From Acidobacteriota bacterium (GTDB lineage Bacteria > Acidobacteriota > Terriglobia > Terriglobales > Acidobacteriaceae), in assembly GCA_021798235.1 (NCBI GenBank), contig JAJZMO010000194.1:1-10489 (forward strand): DNA of 10,489 bases, in the 5' to 3' direction. Below the pieces are notes generated by a model that had not been told where the DNA came from, searched no databases, and worked only from the letters and a program-made list of their open reading frames with translations. Shown piece after piece: positions 2,349 to 9,008 of this stretch (its first letter is position 1; every line of letters starts with the position of its first letter). Made by a program: the position numbers and the translations under genes.

Positions 2349-4295
2349 TCACACGCCGCGCAGTGCCTGCGAAAAACTCACCTCACGCTGCTTCTTATCC
2401 CGCGCAGATTTCTCCTCTTGGGGGATGCTATCGCCTTCGCCGGGCGCAAGAAATAGATTCGCCTCCAGCCCATGCTGGCGCGTGTAGAGATCCCAATAGC
2501 GTCCGCGCTTGGCAAATAATTCTTCGTGATTGCCTCGCTCAGCGATGCGTCCCTCTTCGATCACAAGAATCTGATCCGCACGCCGAATGGTGGAGAGCCG
2601 GTGCGCGATCACAAACGTTGTGCGCCCACGCATCAGATAGCTGAGTCCCTCTTGAATCAACGCCTCACTTTCAGAATCCAGGCTGGAAGTGGCCTCATCT
2701 AGAATCAAAATTCTGGGATCGGCCAGAATCGCACGCGCAATGGAGATGCGCTGGCGCTGCCCGCCGGAGAGCTTCACGCCGCGCTCGCCAACAATGGTCT
2801 CGTAGCCTTCAGGAAAACGCTCGGCAAACTCATCCACGCGCGCAATGCGGCAGGCCGCGAGCACTTGCTCCTCGGTGGCCTGCGGACGCGAAAACTGAAC
2901 GTTATCCCGAATGCTGCCATCAAACAGAAATGATTCTTGCAGCACCACGCCCAACTGCGTGCGATAGTCGCGAAGCCGCACCGTCGCCAGATCCACACCA
3001 TCAATACGTACACAGCCAACATCCGGCACATGAAAGGCGCAGAGTAAACTGATGATCGTCGACTTGCCCGATCCCGAAGGCCCGATCAGTGCTGTCACCG
3101 TGCCCGGCTGCGCATCGAGCGTAATGCTGCGCAACACCGGCTTATCTGGCTCATAGGAGAAGCTGACATCTTCATAGCGCACCTCGCCACGCAAGGGGCC
3201 GATGGATACCGTGCGGCGCGGGTCGCGCTGTTCATCGGTCTCCGCAAGAATCTCACTGGTGCGATCCAGTCCAGCCAGGGCCTCCGTAAGTTGCGTGCCA
3301 ATGGCGACGATCTGGAAAACGGGTGCAATCATGTACGCGAGAAACATGACGTATTCCAAATAATCGCCGCGTGTCATGTGATGCGCCACCACCTGTTGCG
3401 CGCCCAGATACATAACCAGCGCACCCACCACACCCAGTACCACCGTGGAGGCCAGCCCCATCACCGACTGTGCCGTCAACGTGCGGATCACATTCTCCAA
3501 GAGCCGCAACACTCCACCTGCAAATACCTTGGCCTCGCGTTCTTCCGCGTGGTATCCCTTCACCACGCGCACGCCGCCCAAGGATTCCGTGAGTCGACCG
3601 GTCACCTCTGCGTTGATGCGCGCGCGCTCGCGAAAGATGGGCCGGATGGTCTTGAAGGCCGTGCGCAATATCAACGTGAAGATGGCGAGAATCACAAAGG
3701 CCAGCAGTGTCATTCGAGCGTTGATGTGCAACAGCCAGCCAAAGGCCAGCGCCGCAGCCAACAGTCCGCCCACAAATTCCACCAGCCCTGTGCCGATTAA
3801 ATTGCGCACGCCCTCCACATCCGTCATGATGCGTGAGACCAGCGTGCCCGTGCGATTGGCATCGTAAAATGCGACAGGCAGTCGCCCCACATGCTCCTGC
3901 ACCTGCACACGCAAATCGGCAATCAACCGTTGCGCAGCTTTGGAGAGCAACTGCGTCAGCGCGTAAGACGTGATTCCCTGAATCGCCGTCGCCAGCAGCA
4001 CGGCTCCAATGATCCAACGCAGCAGGCCCATTTCCTGCTTACCCATCACGTCGTCCATCAGATATTTCGTGCTGGCGGGCAACACCAAGCCTGCGACCCG
4101 ATTGATCGCCATCAGCACCAAGCCGACCGAGAGCAAGACCCGCCGGGGGCGTACCAGCTTCCAAATCTCTGGCAACACCTTGCGCAGTTCGGTGCGCTTT
4201 TTTGTATCGGTGACGGCGCGTCCGCCAGCGGACTCCGACTTGCGCCCGCTGCGCGCTCCATGCGTACCGCCCACCCACGCTGGCCGAATCGACAT
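2349..4295 (-). CDS. ABC exporter half-transporter (permease fused to ATPase), MsbA/BmrA-like
   Basis: This 648-residue inner-membrane protein has a type-1 ABC exporter transmembrane domain (about residues 45-325, six predicted helices) followed by a nucleotide-binding domain (about 350-600). It would act as a homodimer pumping lipids, drugs or another hydrophobic substrate outward; the substrate cannot be read from the sequence. The ATPase motifs are complete: Walker A GPSGSGKST with Lys411, Q-loop Gln453, signature LSGGQRQR with Ser510, Walker B ILILDEATSSLD with Asp533 and catalytic Glu534, and H-loop His565. About 50 charged residues follow the ATPase, a tail I would not call a domain. 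The start is ATG 4295, which is 1 nt after the stop of the upstream gene (TAG-G-ATG), implying translational coupling. A longer reading from a TTG at 4328 would overlap the upstream gene by 32 nt and is less likely. The gene is last in the minus-strand unit. Confidence 0.93.
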   Translation of the reverse strand: MSIRPAWVGGTHGARSGRKSESAGGRAVTDTKKRTELRKVLPEIWKLVRPRRVLLSVGLVLMAINRVAGLVLPASTKYLMDDVMGKQEMGLLRWIIGAVLLATAIQGITSYALTQLLSKAAQRLIADLRVQVQEHVGRLPVAFYDANRTGTLVSRIMTDVEGVRNLIGTGLVEFVGGLLAAALAFGWLLHINARMTLLAFVILAIFTLILRTAFKTIRPIFRERARINAEVTGRLTESLGGVRVVKGYHAEEREAKVFAGGVLRLLENVIRTLTAQSVMGLASTVVLGVVGALVMYLGAQQVVAHHMTRGDYLEYVMFLAYMIAPVFQIVAIGTQLTEALAGLDRTSEILAETDEQRDPRRTVSIGPLRGEVRYEDVSFSYEPDKPVLRSITLDAQPGTVTALIGPSGSGKSTIISLLCAFHVPDVGCVRIDGVDLATVRLRDYRTQLGVVLQESFLFDGSIRDNVQFSRPQATEEQVLAACRIARVDEFAERFPEGYETIVGERGVKLSGGQRQRISIARAILADPRILILDEATSSLDSESEALIQEGLSYLMRGRTTFVIAHRLSTIRRADQILVIEEGRIAERGNHEELFAKRGRYWDLYTRQHGLEANLFLAPGEGDSIPQEEKSARDKKQREVSFSQALRGV

Positions 4296-4296
4296 C

Positions 4297-4680
4297 CTAA
4301 GCCTGCGTACGCGCCTTACGCGCAGCAATGAAGGAACGAACGAAAAGCACCGTGAGGATTAGGCATAAGGCAGACATGGCCAGTTCCTCCCACATGGCCA
4401 GTGGACGCAGCACCGCTTGACCGTGCATCTGCTTCAGCACATCGCCCATCGCGCGGATACCAGGAAACAAAAATCCCAACAAGGCGATGGTAACGGCAAT
4501 GTGCATCACGAGCATTCTGCGCTTGCTATCTTCGGTTCCAGCAAAGATTCCGCAGATCCAAAGTGCAACGCCAAAAAAGGCTGGGATCAGCGCCGTGGGC
4601 GCGTGGCTTCCCGTAGCCACAAAAAATCCAGCGCCCAAAAGAATCAGAACGACTGCAAACAAAATCGTGGTCTTCGCCAT
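4297..4680 (-). CDS. Small four-helix membrane protein of unknown function
   Basis: This 127-residue protein has four hydrophobic segments at about residues 4-22, 28-47, 56-74 and 95-117. A short Lys/Arg loop (SKRR) lies between the second and third, and the C-terminus is basic (ARKAR). After the first helix it reads GSHAPTALIPAFFG. I recall this kind of Ser/Pro-Thr-Ala-Leu-Ile-Pro-Ala-Phe-Phe-Gly segment from uncharacterised membrane proteins of acidobacteria and planctomycetes, but I know no function. There are no catalytic or metal-binding motifs. It sits 17 nt after gluconokinase, with a strong ribosome binding site, and its stop is 1 nt before the exporter start. Co-translation with the exporter could mean an accessory role, but that is inference from position only. 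Confidence 0.85.
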   Translation of the reverse strand: MAKTTILFAVVLILLGAGFFVATGSHAPTALIPAFFGVALWICGIFAGTEDSKRRMLVMHIAVTIALLGFLFPGIRAMGDVLKQMHGQAVLRPLAMWEELAMSALCLILTVLFVRSFIAARKARTQA

Positions 4681-4687
4681 AAAATTT

Positions 4688-4693
4688 CTCCTT
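4688..4693 (-). promoter_or_regulatory. Strong Shine-Dalgarno site of the four-helix membrane protein
   Basis: On the minus strand a perfect AAGGAG lies 7 nt before the ATG at 4680, inside the 17-nt gap after the gluconokinase stop. It fixes the start codon and shows that this gene has its own translation initiation rather than depending on read-through from gluconokinase. Confidence 0.8.
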
Positions 4694-4697
4694 ATCC

Positions 4698-5219
4698 TTA
4701 TTCTGAACTCTTCCCATCAGCATAGCGTTCGGGCGCAATCTTCGCGCAGATGGCCTGGACGATTTCTGGAACGCTCTGTGCAATCGAGACGTGCAGCGCA
4801 TCGGCAGGCGGCTCCAGTGTGGCGAGCTGGCTGGGCAGCAGCGCTGGATTCATGTAATGCCCTGCGCGTTGGCCCAACCGCTGCGCAATCAAATCCGCAG
4901 GCCCATCCAGCCATACGAAGCGAATCTGCGCTGCATCCATTGCCTCCATCAATCGCTCGCGGTATTGCCGCTTCAGCGCCGAACAGGCCAGAACACTGTT
5001 CACATCCGCAGCAATCCATGCACCCACCTGCGCATGCAACGCATCCAACCACGGCGCGCGATCGGCATCAGTCAGCGCAACGCCTGCCTGCATCTTGGCG
5101 CGATTCTCTGCAGTGTGAAAATCATCCGCGTCGACAAATTGCCATCCCATGCGCTGCGCCAAGGCGTGGCCTACCGTAGTTTTCCCGCTGCCGGTTACGC
5201 CCATCAAAATCACAACCAT
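4698..5219 (-). CDS. gntK: Gluconokinase (carbohydrate kinase, GntK/IdnK type)
   Basis: This 173-residue cytosolic P-loop kinase phosphorylates D-gluconate with ATP to 6-phosphogluconate, feeding the pentose phosphate or Entner-Doudoroff routes. The length is normal for the family. It has Walker A GVTGSGKT at residues 7-14, the DADDFH substrate-site block at 30-35 followed by N..KM..G..LTD.DR.PWL (39-58), CSALKRQYR at 79-87, and the lid-like GHYM...LL.SQ.ATLE block around 120-136. That block is usually GHFMP in relatives; here it is GHYMN, a mild variation. The ATG at 5219 has AGGTGG 7 nt upstream (5227-5232). The gene starts 40 nt after the SCO gene and ends 17 nt before the membrane protein, so it is probably co-transcribed. 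No gluconate permease, regulator or dehydratase lies nearby, so gluconate use would depend on genes elsewhere or on salvage of internally produced gluconate. Confidence 0.93.
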   Translation of the reverse strand: MVVILMGVTGSGKTTVGHALAQRMGWQFVDADDFHTAENRAKMQAGVALTDADRAPWLDALHAQVGAWIAADVNSVLACSALKRQYRERLMEAMDAAQIRFVWLDGPADLIAQRLGQRAGHYMNPALLPSQLATLEPPADALHVSIAQSVPEIVQAICAKIAPERYADGKSSE

Positions 5220-5259
5220 TGCATAACCACCTGCATCCTGTTTTCACCGGATCGTATCG

Positions 5260-6180
5260 CTACTTCCCCGCCTGCACTGCGCCCCGCACCACCTGCAACA
5301 CCTGCTCCGGCGTCCAGTCATTTGTCGGATACCACGCGAGCACTTTGCCGTCCGGCCCAACAATGGCGGTGGAAAGCGAGTGCTGCAACGTCTTGCCTGG
5401 CCCCGGCGTCACACCCACACCAAACCACTGCAATACAGATGCACGATTGGTCGCTTCCGGTGCGGCAAACTCCCAGTGTTGAAACTTTTCCTGCGTGTAG
5501 CGCCCTGTGTAGGCCTCGCCATAGCTGCGCAACACGGCTGGCGTGTCATACTTCGGATCAAAACTAATGCTGAGCAGGTGCGTCTTGGCGTAGAGCTTCG
5601 GATCTGTTGCCAAGCTCTTGTCGATCGCGGCAAAGTTGCGGCTCATCAACGGGCAGTAATTGGAAAGTGGGCAGCGCGTGTAGATAAATGTCAGCAGCAA
5701 AACCCTGCCGCGATATTGATGCAGATGAATTTTTCTTCCGCTTTGATCCACCAACGCGAAATCCGGAACCGCATCTCCGGGCTGCGGCATGTGATATTGC
5801 ACGGTCGGCTTGCGGTTTAGCTGCGACTGCTGCAGAATGACGATCTCATCCAGCGTGGCTCCGCCCGAACCGCTCAGAGCAAGCTGCGCTCGAATCTTGT
5901 CGCCCGGATGCAGCGCGCCCGCATCCGCAGGATTGGCCAGCGTGTATATCATCGTCATTGGCTCCATCACGCCGGGAATATTTTCGTTGGCCATCTCCAC
6001 AGAGCCATGCTCAACATCCACAGATGCAATCACTCCGCGCACCATGTACGTCTTCGCATGTGCAGATTGCGCATCCTGCGTCCGTGCCGCTGGGGTTGCC
6101 CGCTTGCATCCCGGCAATCCGGCTGCGGCCACAAAAATCACCCCTGCGACAACTCCACGCCGCTTCCTGCGCCAGCTCAT
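5260..6180 (-). CDS. SCO1/SenC-family lipoprotein with N-terminal CusF-like copper-binding domain
   Basis: This 306-residue predicted lipoprotein probably carries copper in the periplasm. A basic N-terminus and a hydrophobic stretch end in the lipobox LPGC with Cys25. Residues about 45-115 resemble the CusF/copper-binding periplasmic fold (PMTM with Met75 and Met77, plus Met72, then PGD). Residues about 133-306 are a thioredoxin-like SCO domain with PDFALVDQSG, the pair Cys170 and Cys176 in TRCPLSNYCP, ISFDP (the usual ISVDP element) and a conserved-type His267 in LQHSLST before GPDG. In classical SCO proteins the cysteines are CxxxC; here five residues separate them, a spacing I recall from acidobacterial and planctomycete members. 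Asn65 stands where CusF-type domains normally have a His ligand. SCO proteins deliver copper to the CuA site of cytochrome c oxidase; that role is inferred. The start overlaps the receptor stop as ATGA, with GAGGG 8 nt upstream. Confidence 0.92.
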   Translation of the reverse strand: MSWRRKRRGVVAGVIFVAAAGLPGCKRATPAARTQDAQSAHAKTYMVRGVIASVDVEHGSVEMANENIPGVMEPMTMIYTLANPADAGALHPGDKIRAQLALSGSGGATLDEIVILQQSQLNRKPTVQYHMPQPGDAVPDFALVDQSGRKIHLHQYRGRVLLLTFIYTRCPLSNYCPLMSRNFAAIDKSLATDPKLYAKTHLLSISFDPKYDTPAVLRSYGEAYTGRYTQEKFQHWEFAAPEATNRASVLQWFGVGVTPGPGKTLQHSLSTAIVGPDGKVLAWYPTNDWTPEQVLQVVRGAVQAGK

Positions 6181-8558
6181 TGCGATTTCCCTCTATGCAA
6201 CAGCCTACCGTAGTGAAAGCGGTATCGAAGCTCGGCATAAATCTCGCGCGGCGCGTTGTAGTGGAATCCGCCAAAGGTCAGGCTGTTATCCAGTAGCACG
6301 CGATGATTGGTCACGTTCGTCGCATCCACGGATGCGGTAATGCGCTTGCGCCACGTCTTGCCCGCCGACAGGCTCAGATTGGTATCGTGCGGCAAATATT
6401 GCCCCGGATATTGCGCGTTTGGATCACCATTGTCAAAACCCGAACCATAATACAGATTGACCGACGCAAAGGATTGCGCAGGCAGCTTTGCATCCATGCC
6501 CACGTTCAGAGTGTTGCGCTGGTCATGGTCCATCGGCGTGTAGTTGAAGCCTGCATTGCACTGCGGCGCACTGATTGGAACGCAAACCAGTCCGCCCGTA
6601 ATCGCTCCGCGCTGCTCGGCAAGCTGGTTGGAGTACGCCAGATGCACCTGCCCAAAGCGCCACGCAACCGGAGAATGAATCGTCAGCTCCCAGCCCTGAA
6701 TCAACGCACCATCAATTGAAATTGGGAAAAATATGTTCGACTCGCCCACATTCGAGTGATCGAGAAAGTTATTCGCGCGCGTTTCAAAATTATCCGCATC
6801 AATCAACCATCCCCGCAGCGGAATCTGAACACCAAATTGATGCTCCTCATCCCGCTCCCCATGCAACGGCAAAAATGAAGAGTTCGTGCTGTTGGCATAT
6901 CCCAGCACCGGGCCGGAGAGTGTCTCCAACGGCGGCGGCTGGTAATACCGCCCATAAAATGCCCGCAAGACCCAATGAATCTTTGGCACCTGCACAGATA
7001 GCCCCAAGCGCGGATCCGTCTCCACCTCAGTGAACGCGGCCACATATTGCGAAGCGCGCACTCCGGCCAGCACCGTAATCCACCGGTCCAGCTTGTAATT
7101 ATCGGAGACATATTCCTCCGTCACGCCCCCGGCGTTGGCTTGCTGCATTTGGAAATTCGGATAAGCTCCGTTCGCAAAGTTCGCGCCAAAGGCGTCGCTG
7201 TCGTGCTGACCAAATCCATACAATCCGGCCTGCACCGTGTGATTCTTGATCTGCGTGGTTAAAGATGCCTGCGCGCCTGCATAGTTCGACGCGCGATCCG
7301 ACATGGCGGCAATCGGAGTGTCCTGCGCACCCGGAACATAATCCGCGCTGTTGTAGTGGTAGAAGGGAGAAACCTGCAACAACGTTGCCGCGTTCAACGT
7401 ATGCACCCACGAGAATGCGGCAAATCCATCCGTCTCGTGCTGCCCATCTCTCAACCCGCTGGAGTCATACTGCAAATTTTCGTAATCGTTCGGATTGGGA
7501 TCATACGGGATCTGAAAATAATCTGTGCGCAGTTGCGCAACCAGCCGGAACTGATCCTTGGGCGTGCGGTTGTACACCAGCGAAGTAAATCCGCCATATC
7601 CATTGGCGGCATCGTGGTATGGCTGCGCAATCGGCGGCATCAGGCCATAATTCGTCCGATTTCCATTGGCGCTGGCATAGTAGGCAAATCGCTCCGTGTG
7701 GCCGCCAAAGTTGATCTGGTCGTTGGTCTGGTCATAACTGCCGCCACTGGCGATCAACTCGGCTTCGTTGTTGCGCTCAAACCCCGTGCGTGGAGAAACA
7801 TCAAAAACTCCATACGTCCGGTCACCCACATCTGCGTTATAGCTGCCCCGCTGCACTTCGAGATAATCAATATCTTTGGGATCGATCTGCGGCCCCAGAT
7901 TGCTGGCGATTTCCGTATTCGGAATGGCGACGCCATCAATCTCCCAGCTCACCTGATGCCCGCCGCGCACATGCAGCATGTCATGCACCATATAGGCTCC
8001 GGGCACATACTCCGTAATCATGGCCATGCTGTCGGTGCGATCGGCTCCCGGCGTGCGCGCAATATCCGTGCGATTGACCAACGTCGTGGGCGTAACGGAA
8101 TTGGGATTGGCCGCATCCACCTCCGTGCTTACCTGCACCGACTGCCGCACCGTGCCCACCTGCAAAGGAAAATGCAGAATCGGCGACGTGTCGGAATACA
8201 CCGTCACCGTTTGCATCAGCACATCAAACCCATGACTTCGAATGGTGATCGTATACCCACCCAGTGGCACCGATAAAAAGGAAAAATACCCACTGGCATT
8301 TGTTCGCGCGCGCAAGATCAAGCTGGAATCCAGCGCCTGCATCTCGACCGCTGCACCGGCTACCGGTCTGTGCCGTGGATCATGCACAATACCCTGCACC
8401 TGTCCAAACACAGTGGCGTGGGCATAAACACTGCAACCAATCAGCAGCGCGCCTATGAGAAATGTAAACTTTCGCAACACAAGCATCCTCTTCGCTGGAA
8501 AGCGCATCCGCGCAAATACCAAGCTGCTCGCCGCAGCAATGGCTGCCACGGACGACAT
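6177..8558 (-). CDS. TonB-dependent outer-membrane receptor with carboxypeptidase-regulatory-like domain
   Basis: This is a 793-residue outer-membrane transporter as called from ATG 8558. Residues about 52-135 form a carboxypeptidase-regulatory-like beta-sandwich (VQGIVHDPRHRPVAGA), typical of acidobacterial and Bacteroidetes receptors. Residues about 145-258 form the plug (LHVRGGHQVSWEIDGV, then GDRTYGVFDVSPRTGF). The rest is a beta-barrel with alternating hydrophobic and aromatic strands, ending near REIYAELRYRFHY. A signal peptide (MLVLRKF, hydrophobic core, then VYAHA) begins only at residue 25, so the true start may be lower: GTG 8480 has GAAGAGG with ideal 6-nt spacing. ATG 8558 has AGAAAAGG 4 nt upstream and lies 21 nt after the upstream stop. 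No clear TonB box is visible. The last ten residues after the final strand appear to exist because that DNA holds the ribosome binding site of the SCO gene. The substrate is unknown; copper is suggested by the neighbours only. Confidence 0.93.
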   Translation of the reverse strand: MSSVAAIAAASSLVFARMRFPAKRMLVLRKFTFLIGALLIGCSVYAHATVFGQVQGIVHDPRHRPVAGAAVEMQALDSSLILRARTNASGYFSFLSVPLGGYTITIRSHGFDVLMQTVTVYSDTSPILHFPLQVGTVRQSVQVSTEVDAANPNSVTPTTLVNRTDIARTPGADRTDSMAMITEYVPGAYMVHDMLHVRGGHQVSWEIDGVAIPNTEIASNLGPQIDPKDIDYLEVQRGSYNADVGDRTYGVFDVSPRTGFERNNEAELIASGGSYDQTNDQINFGGHTERFAYYASANGNRTNYGLMPPIAQPYHDAANGYGGFTSLVYNRTPKDQFRLVAQLRTDYFQIPYDPNPNDYENLQYDSSGLRDGQHETDGFAAFSWVHTLNAATLLQVSPFYHYNSADYVPGAQDTPIAAMSDRASNYAGAQASLTTQIKNHTVQAGLYGFGQHDSDAFGANFANGAYPNFQMQQANAGGVTEEYVSDNYKLDRWITVLAGVRASQYVAAFTEVETDPRLGLSVQVPKIHWVLRAFYGRYYQPPPLETLSGPVLGYANSTNSSFLPLHGERDEEHQFGVQIPLRGWLIDADNFETRANNFLDHSNVGESNIFFPISIDGALIQGWELTIHSPVAWRFGQVHLAYSNQLAEQRGAITGGLVCVPISAPQCNAGFNYTPMDHDQRNTLNVGMDAKLPAQSFASVNLYYGSGFDNGDPNAQYPGQYLPHDTNLSLSAGKTWRKRITASVDATNVTNHRVLLDNSLTFGGFHYNAPREIYAELRYRFHYGRLLHRGKSQ
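6189..6193 (-). promoter_or_regulatory. Ribosome binding site of the SCO gene, embedded in the receptor 3' end
   Basis: GAGGG on the minus strand is 8 nt before the SCO ATG at 6180 and inside the receptor coding sequence. Together with the ATGA overlap (6180-6177) it indicates translational coupling, which would keep receptor and lipoprotein output linked. Confidence 0.75.
8487..8493 (-). promoter_or_regulatory. Alternative internal ribosome binding site in the receptor gene
   Basis: GAAGAGG directly abuts ATG 8486 but is 6 nt from GTG 8480. Initiation at 8480 would give a protein beginning at the lysine/arginine-bearing start of the signal peptide and remove the 26-residue extension. It competes with the site at 8563-8570 serving ATG 8558. 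Confidence 0.4.
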
Positions 8559-8579
8559 GAAACCTTTTCTGGAGGATTG

Positions 8580-8942
8580 TTAGAGCGAAAGCTGCGGAGG
8601 ACTCCGCGGAGCATGGGAGAAAATCTTTAGGGTTTGGGGCGCGACAAGTTCGGCATTGACGCCCAACCGTGCTTGGAAGCTCTGCACGCCACAGGCCAAC
8701 GGAACCAGCAGACCCAACTGCGCCGAGGCCACGGCATGATGCAACCGCGCGTACGGACAAGGCTGCGCCATCCAGGATCGCGGCATGTCCATGCCCGCAG
8801 CCATGTGCATCATCATGCAATGGTGCTTGCCATCCCTGCGGCAGCACGCAGGCACTCCCGCCTGCGTCTCCGCCCGCAGCAAAGGCTGCATGGGCAGCGC
8901 ACACAGCAGCAATAACAGCGCCGCAGCTGCGATCCTTCTCAC
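8580..8942 (-). CDS. Small secreted Cys/His/Met-rich protein, putative periplasmic metal binder
   Basis: This 120-residue protein is called from GTG 8942. Residues 1-24 form a signal peptide: two arginines, a Leu/Ala-rich core, and a cleavage site near LLRA-ET. The mature part begins with a ligand-dense block, PACCRRDGKHHCMMMHM (residues 31-47: Cys33, Cys34, His40, His41, Cys42, Met43-45, His46, Met47), then Met51, Met53, a CP pair at Cys62 and His68/His69. A hydrophobic segment lies at about 74-85, and the C-terminus is Pro-rich (APRSPP). I recall similar CCRR...KHHC small proteins ahead of receptor genes in acidobacteria, and a comparable design in DUF2946 proteins next to copper receptors of proteobacteria. 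Neither has an established function that I know. There is no in-frame ATG upstream; a TTG at 9050 would reach into the opposite gene and break the signal peptide. No Shine-Dalgarno precedes GTG. It is the first gene of the minus-strand unit. Confidence 0.75.
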   Translation of the reverse strand: MRRIAAAALLLLLCALPMQPLLRAETQAGVPACCRRDGKHHCMMMHMAAGMDMPRSWMAQPCPYARLHHAVASAQLGLLVPLACGVQSFQARLGVNAELVAPQTLKIFSHAPRSPPQLSL

Positions 8943-9008
8943 AAATTCAGTGTAGCAGCGGCAGTCAAAGACGTGCGTTCCCACCGCAAAATCGCGTATA
9001 AATTGCAC
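8943..9008. promoter_or_regulatory. Divergent promoter region, probable leaderless starts on both sides
   Basis: These 66 bp separate two divergent start codons. On the minus strand TACACT (8954-8949) is followed by exactly 6 nt and then GTG 8942. On the plus strand TATAAA (8997-9002) is followed by exactly 6 nt and then ATG 9009. A -10 hexamer placed there would put transcription start on the first base of each start codon, and neither gene has a Shine-Dalgarno sequence. Convincing -35 elements are not visible at 16-18 bp spacing on either strand. I see no clear inverted-repeat operator. Confidence 0.45.

Follow-up and report, generated by a model that had tools for sequence, protein, structure and literature searches.

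A Candidate CruR-like Arrest Leader Ahead of a TonB-Dependent Receptor and a CusF-SCO Fusion Gene in Acidobacteriota

Genes at the Locus

The window analyzed here is a stretch of 10,489 nt of acidobacterial DNA, in which a sequence-only reading had described three minus-strand genes with an ATGA overlap. ORF prediction and Pfam confirmed these genes, their positions and their domains. The first is a small ORF of 120 amino acids (GTG at 8942 to TAA at 8580), which we regard as a candidate CruR-like, copper-responsive arrest peptide and term the leader. Its earlier characterization as secreted and rich in Cys, His and Met holds, as seen in an N-terminal hydrophobic signal and in CCRRDGKHHCMMMHM. 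It is followed on the same strand by a gene for a TonB-dependent receptor with an N-terminal CarboxypepD_reg domain (6177..8558, 793 aa) and by a gene for a CusF-SCO fusion, a putative lipoprotein (5260..6180, 306 aa). The stop and start codons of the latter two genes overlap in an ATGA (6177..6180, minus strand), by which their translation is likely coupled. A gluconokinase gene of the GntK type (4698..5219, minus strand; TIGR01313, 160.1 bits, cut-off 113.75) begins 40 nt downstream of the CusF-SCO gene and is possibly the last gene of the operon transcript, with an unrelated function. The order of SCO and gluconokinase genes is retained in several relatives. In L003, L008 and L011, the spacing between the two is about 3 nt according to crude ORF calling.

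For comparison, the best 80 of 228 confirmed receptor loci were combined with the window to a set of 81. Four of these are cut on the 5' side (L012, L036, L039 and L065), leaving 77 readable loci. The start of the receptor gene of the window is either 8558 or 8486. Similarity to the receptors of the eight best loci starts at residues 16-30, and in some more distant loci (e.g., L017, L025, L026) it starts at residues 1-7. The third in-frame ATG at 8486 (MLVLRKFTFLIGALL) gives a plausible signal peptide and may be the true start. The intergenic region between leader and receptor would then span 93 nt (8487..8579, minus strand), compared to 21 nt from 8558.

The CusF-SCO Fusion Protein

Both domains of the third gene product score above their Pfam cut-offs (CusF_Ec, 49.5 bits, cut-off 27; SCO1-SenC, 59 bits, cut-off 22.8). 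Its conservation was assessed in the best 120 of 6,709 homologues. The lipobox-like Cys25 is conserved without exception in the 116 of 120 listed homologues in which this position is occupied. Within the CusF domain, each Met of the motif MEPMTM (M72, M75, M77; 5950..5967, minus strand) is kept in 119-120 of the 120 listed homologues, and so is H91. The ligands of E. coli CusF are a Met pair and a His. M75 and M77 may represent this pair, as read by eye with the E. coli CusF sequence outside the alignment; on inspection of the alignment, no counterpart of the His ligand was seen before the IPG motif. Compared to CusF, the Met residues of the domain appear to be kept, and CusF and SCO are fused here.

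The copper site of SCO1/SenC proteins consists of CX3C plus a His. Both Cys and the His are kept in the fusion protein, but CX5C (C170-C176; 5653..5673, minus strand) replaces CX3C, and the alignment with Bacillus subtilis Sco1 has a two-residue gap between the cysteines. The CX5C as well as His267 (codon at 5380..5382, minus strand) are present in 120 of the 120 listed homologues. The cysteines were read from alignment columns, as an initial motif pattern had failed to pick them up in 98 of the 120. Conservation and genomic context suggest that the protein handles periplasmic copper, and the conserved CX5C variant of SCO fused to CusF represents a further oddity that can be tested. In locus L077, a VKOR gene (11424-11867) follows the CusF-SCO gene, and six similar ORFs of other loci cluster with it (the L077 ORF alone was scanned). 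The presence of VKOR beside CusF-SCO suggests a link to thiol chemistry.

The Receptor and Its Possible Substrate

The receptor contains CarboxypepD_reg (52.7 bits) and Plug (25.2 bits), both above the Pfam cut-offs, and displays a plug domain together with the fold of TonB-dependent transporters. The fold is generic, with PqqU, siderophore and cobalamin receptors as best structural matches. CrtA and OprC are absent among the best 50 structure matches listed, and the OprC-type family TIGR01778 is not among the NCBIfam matches up to an E value of 0.1. The receptor profile matched two sequences of solved structures, NOMO2 and a tail fibre, both via the N-terminal region.

The receptor family is rich in His, with an average content of 3.4% compared to about 1.8% in 29 other receptors, the highest of which reaches 3.34% (the 29 are the 30 listed of 92 Plug matches in three genomes, minus the family itself). 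Such a high His content (3.34%) is seen in receptor L155 of the Acidipila rosea genome. Of the 26 His aligned across 78 receptor sequences, 14 reach a conservation of 97% or more (P 4e-4 when compared with all residues), with Pro and Trp being as conserved as His.

From conservation and context, we posit that the receptor probably imports a copper chelate. Alternatively, it may take up a non-copper substrate such as a siderophore or a glycan, its control by copper being incidental. This alternative agrees with the structural matches to siderophore, cobalamin and PQQ receptors, with the large number of Plug-bearing receptors that these genomes encode (three of them have 23, 26 and 43 matches) and with the finding that no Cys or Met is 97% conserved in the 78 sequences (M180 reaches 94%). 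We consider it unlikely, albeit worth keeping in mind, in view of the leader, the nature of the third gene and the 14 conserved His. Moreover, the copper transporter CrtA is likewise described as conserving two His and neither Cys nor Met, its ligand-site residues being Y130, W265, E337, Q356, H358 and R395 (PMC9426467, PMC12914433).

Distribution of the Leader across Receptor Loci

A leader-like ORF lies upstream of the receptor on the same strand in 74 of the 77 readable loci, usually within about 200 nt and at most about 490 nt away (crude ORF calling); it was not seen in the remaining three (L026, L033, L037). HMM searches contributed 61 of the leaders, and another 13 were selected by visual inspection of ORFs flagged for RxPP or for three or more Cys. 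R.PP is located at most 15 residues from the C-terminus in 64 of the 74 leaders, in a search that was not blind to this motif since most of the 39 sequences underlying the HMM end in RxPP. The variable residue is only G (37), A (25) or S (2). The leader of L061 carries RAPP with a longer tail. As a control, an R(A/G/S)PP end was found in 2 of 1,013 further ORFs predicted in these loci and in 0.36% of shuffled leaders. A protein search with the small ORF returned 38 relatives; in 36 of these, the C-terminal motif is RxPP with A, G or S.

Another proline motif ends nine of the 74 leaders (L023, L032, L041, L042, L046, L050, L051, L052, L056). These nine loci have the same receptor family, and their leaders form a second class with a signal peptide, a Cys/His cluster and mostly PF(E/Q/H)PPR or LSPPPR ends. 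PPR or PPQ is located at most 12 residues from the C-terminus in 117 of the 120 listed of 371 homologues of this class, and the ending is possibly another arrest motif. No DUF2946 match was found for the second class. The contig of L051 is labelled Betaproteobacteria and carries an otherwise acidobacterial receptor with a second-class leader; it is perhaps misbinned.

Tandem RGPP leaders precede one operon in L124, L125, L127, L128, L131, L132 and L133, with 8-230 nt between the stop of the first leader and the open frame of the second. They may represent a double sensor or a recent duplication.

On the genome level, the leader is present in 16 of the 18 genomes reached through the loci, in 15 of them as a single copy, and the two genomes without an RxPP leader carry the other proline class. 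The genome of L013 additionally contains a leader-like fragment with two internal TGA stops (L097, E 0.0019), perhaps a decayed copy. Leader matches at E<=0.001 occur in at least 46 of 396 acidobacterial genomes, a number that probably falls short of the true one, as scoring was limited to 11 candidates per genome. From the matching genomes, 20 leader regions were fetched, chosen partly for multiple hits. The leader is followed by the same receptor family in nine of them and by another outer-membrane receptor in nine (four by eye only); one of the remaining two contains a receptor-like fragment and PepSY_TM, and one is unclear. Among the downstream genes scanned, Pfam identified PepSY_TM in three (E<1e-60), CopC in one, and CarboxypepD_reg plus a barrel in two.

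Conserved Features of the Leader and Kinship with DUF2946

An alignment of 65 leaders, with 16-54% identity to that of the window, revealed a common architecture of signal peptide, CC..G.HHC and R(A/G/S)PP, with the stop usually 4-5 residues later. C34, R113, P115 and P116 are invariant, and R3, C33, H40, C42 and C62 are nearly so. In the window, the putative metal motif CCRRDGKHHC comprises residues 33-42 (8817..8846, minus strand; C33 95%, C34 100%, H40 94%, C42 98%). The putative ribosome-arrest motif RSPP is encoded by CGG AGT CCT CCG four residues before the stop (8595..8606, minus strand). Cys62 (in CPY; 8757..8759, minus strand), which we term the anchor Cys, lies 51 residues before R113 and thus, if the ribosome stalls at this motif, probably outside the exit tunnel.

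In 65 of 65 leaders, the anchor Cys precedes R by 49-55 residues (mean 51.7, sd 1.18), a spread that is bounded by our definition of the anchor as the outermost Cys 45-55 residues before R; 46% of shuffled leader bodies contain a Cys in this range. Independently of this limit, the C62 column is 98% Cys. The spacing from CC to the anchor Cys is more variable (sd 3.95, n=62), and conservation is low over residues 65-106 (majority frequency 0.27 on average). The conservation pattern would fit a nascent-chain sensor.

The RSPP of the window is shared by the relatives P0001-P0004 and P0007, and it is thus apparently a lineage variant rather than a sequencing error. RGPP, RAPP and RSPP have been repeatedly swapped on the receptor tree, with 15 changes of leader label in total and 10 for RGPP alone. 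In the arrest peptide ApdA, Gly is reported to be fully and Ser, Asp and Pro to be partially permissive for arrest as the second motif residue (PMC12992588, PMC10951233). Neither Asp nor Pro was found at this position among the leaders of the loci surveyed.

CruR is a copper-sensing leader of Bordetella with a RAPP arrest motif and Rho-mediated control of a TonB-dependent copper transporter (PMC9426467, PMC12914433). The leader of the window did not match any Pfam or NCBIfam family at E 0.1. Against PF11162 (DUF2946) it scores 11.8 bits, below the cut-off of 23.7, in an alignment that extends over almost the entire profile and places RSPP at the profile end. PF11162 matches at E<=1 in 21 of the 65 leaders (best 1.5e-5), against a background given by the Orexin matches of the same scan (18 of 65, best 0.0012), which are surely due to chance. 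CopL_fam matches two of the 65 (best 1.6e-5). The relatives P0027 and P0028 carry PF11162 and CPYC; CXXC is absent from the leader of the window, which has C62-P-Y-A instead. We regard the leader as a probable diverged relative of DUF2946 that works like CruR, not as a member by the curated cut-off.

Operon Composition

The order of the three genes recurs in relatives. CusF-SCO is found within 400 nt after the receptor in 24 of the 77 loci with room for it, where it is directly adjacent, and CusF alone in five. In the receptor clade of 12 that holds the window, CusF-SCO is adjacent in 11, and one contig has no room; an addB-like gene lies divergently on the other side in 11 of the 12. Among the 32 ORFs scanned by Pfam (31 of the 40 listed third genes, with nine left out, and the L077 VKOR ORF), no common third gene was seen in loci without SCO; PASTA was found in three, a thioredoxin-like domain in two, and the other matches were single.

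SCO is located far from the leader in nine of the 18 genomes. Seven regions fetched from these nine genomes (L192-L198) were compared with positions 2349-8973 of the window. All seven contain an island of an addB-like gene, SCO, a small membrane protein and an ABC transporter that matches the order of the window, with gluconokinase interposed in four, and none has a leader or receptor between addB and SCO. The distance between the matched points of addB and SCO is 64-138 nt in five regions, and about 1.3 kb with another ORF in two. An island without leader and receptor in seven relatives suggests that the pair may have entered it together as a cassette. This direction of change is our inference, and the adjacency needs 10 or 11 changes on the tree.

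According to this comparison of sequences, the core unit is the leader plus the receptor. A fixed three-gene pathway as the core was rejected, given that CusF-SCO is adjacent in 24 of the 77 loci only and apart in all seven regions examined. Of the shared copper pathway proposed earlier, the link to copper is supported by context, while a fixed hand-over from receptor to SCO finds no support as a general rule.

RNA Signals and Proposed Mode of Control

The 3' end of the leader coincides with a C>G bubble with weak local folding (8513..8699, minus strand), a possible rut site comparable to the unstructured rut region with a C>G bubble described for cruR (PMC9426467, PMC12914433). The highest C minus G of the operon (0.256) occurs in the 78-nt window 8648-8571, which covers the RSPP motif, and the weakest local fold of 18 windows tested (8942-8355) is located at 8642 (-9.8 kcal/mol; the other 17 range from -17 to -44). 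The longest C>G run is a different one, located in the SCO gene (5747-5514) with a peak of 0.154. Across the loci, the leader 3' end and the next 60 nt show a stronger C skew than the receptor stretch used for comparison in 57 of 74, with 17 lacking this difference, and the leader peak tops every peak of that stretch in 27 of 74 only. The bubble is partly a consequence of the motif, since Pro and Arg codons are C-rich.

We consider it likely that the operon is under cis control by its small ORF, acting as a leader peptide of the CruR type, with stalling, copper sensing, the role of Rho and the direction of control posited by analogy to CruR. In such a scenario, the ribosome would stall on the leader once RSPP at the C-terminus reaches the peptidyl-transferase centre. 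In this position it would cover the C-rich, weakly folded stretch, so that Rho could not bind or reach RNA polymerase, and with Rho kept off, the receptor and CusF-SCO genes would be transcribed. Binding of copper to the Cys/His cluster of the nascent chain (CC..HHC and Cys62) would relieve the stall; the ribosome would leave, Rho would terminate transcription, and the operon would be turned off. Family leaders elsewhere precede PepSY_TM and CopC, both known CruR partners in proteobacteria (PMC9426467, PMC12914433), which counts in favor of the CruR-type reading. Counting against it are the score below the DUF2946 cut-off and the lost CXXC, the only partial permissiveness of the RSPP form in ApdA as reported, the nine of 74 leaders with other proline ends and the three leaderless loci.

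The same elements could operate in the opposite direction, as in CutF, with copper prolonging the stall, the ribosome opening a stem-loop that otherwise masks the receptor's ribosome-binding site, and copper turning the operon on. CutF-like leaders are reported to precede TonB-like and CusF genes as well (PMC9973294), and folding after the leader stop is on average slightly better than in shuffles (mean z -0.83 over 74 loci for the 120 nt past the stop, vs +0.20 for a control region). In the window, however, the leader-receptor region folds no better than shuffles (8440-8640, z -0.10), and z is below -2 in just 12% of the 74 loci past the stop and in 19% for -30 to +90. As the genes moreover resemble a system of import and delivery, repression by copper fits better, and we regard a CutF mode as improbable.

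It also appears doubtful, to a similar degree, that the leader arrests in response to another metal (Zn, Ni, Co) or to the state of protein export. CutF-like leaders are thought not to be all copper-specific (PMC9973294), RAPP-type arrest peptides are described as first found upstream of protein-localization genes, and a Caulobacter Zur-regulon table, in its available part, lists two downregulated DUF2946 proteins with a TonB-dependent receptor and czr efflux genes nearby. Copper is nevertheless favored by the copper-type third genes (CusF-SCO in 24 and CusF alone in five of the 77 loci), by the PepSY_TM and CopC genes that family members precede elsewhere, and by the conserved Cys/His cluster.

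The sequence-only reading had proposed the small protein as scavenger or sensor, of which the sensor persists in the form of a nascent leader with R(A/G/S)PP and a near-constant spacing; a stable secreted copper-binding scavenger or periplasmic chaperone acting in trans with receptor and SCO would account for the signal peptide, the Cys/His/Met-rich CCRRDGKHHCMMMHM and the conserved C33, C34, H40, C42 and C62, yet is probably not what the gene encodes and has a slim chance at best, because the best conserved feature outside the metal motif is R(A/G/S)PP near the stop at a near-constant distance from Cys62, and because CruR was reported as undetected in earlier proteomics and CutF as undetected in whole cells (PMC9426467, PMC12914433, PMC9973294). 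Such leaders are an annotation trap, being read as small metal-binding proteins.

Taken together, a CruR-like arrest-leader operon would be a better reading of these genes than a pathway of scavenger, receptor and chaperone, with their functions being proposed by analogy. Going beyond this, we tentatively suggest a portable acidobacterial cassette in which a copper-sensing arrest leader and a receptor move as a unit and place the following genes under nascent-chain copper control. Its sensor would be a two-part site, with CC..HHC at a variable distance from the stall and one Cys at a near-constant one, and some lineages would have tandem doubling or the second class with FxPPR/LSPPPR ends. The divergent acidobacterial branch, with 65 aligned natural variants, yields testable rules on residues, spacing and the second RxPP residue, and the natural RSPP version may help with the question of how copper relieves the stall.

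Comparison with Known Systems

TonB-related uORFs of the RxPP class have been reported throughout Gram-negative bacteria (PMC12992588, PMC10951233). Searches of the main text of open-licence PMC papers showed none that names an acidobacterial case, and such cases may be present in the EMBO J set of TonB-related uORFs. The small exported proteins with C-terminal R(A/G)PP known as ApdA/ApdP, together with the in silico uORF set, resemble the leader of the window, while an RSPP lineage, cassette behaviour and a second proline-motif class do not feature in the available text of these accounts (PMC12992588, PMC10951233). CutF of Rhodobacter capsulatus is similar in that it heads an operon, is exported, senses copper as a nascent chain and has a proline motif at its C-terminus. 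It differs in that copper raises the production of a multicopper oxidase via a stem-loop (PMC9973294), and none stands out in the window.

The closest resemblance is to the operon of CruR (bp2923), crtA/bfrG and bp2921 in Bordetella pertussis. CruR was presented in 2022 as the first characterized uORF to regulate genes in response to a transition metal; its arrest at RAPP in vitro has been demonstrated by others, and its CXXC is required for the copper response (PMC9426467, PMC12914433). Both operons begin with a small exported leader that has metal-binding Cys and, three or four residues from its C-terminal end, an RxPP, followed by a TonB-dependent receptor, and both have a C>G bubble at the leader 3' end. 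C90 and C93 of CruR are located 49 and 46 residues before R139 (PMC9426467, PMC12914433), compared to 51 for the window, and the family range of 49-55 includes 49 but excludes 46. The window differs from CruR in its phylum, in scoring below the DUF2946 cut-off, in RSPP instead of RAPP, and in having CC..HHC and a single Cys in place of CXXC. Its receptor, unlike that of the CruR operon, has a CarboxypepD_reg domain and many conserved His, and the third gene encodes CusF-SCO instead of PepSY_TM. As a kind, the CruR-like arrest-leader operon is already known; within the literature searched, novelty seems to lie in the metal motif, in the near-constant spacing of a single Cys, in the lineage with RSPP, in a receptor rich in His and in the cassette-like behaviour of leader and receptor.
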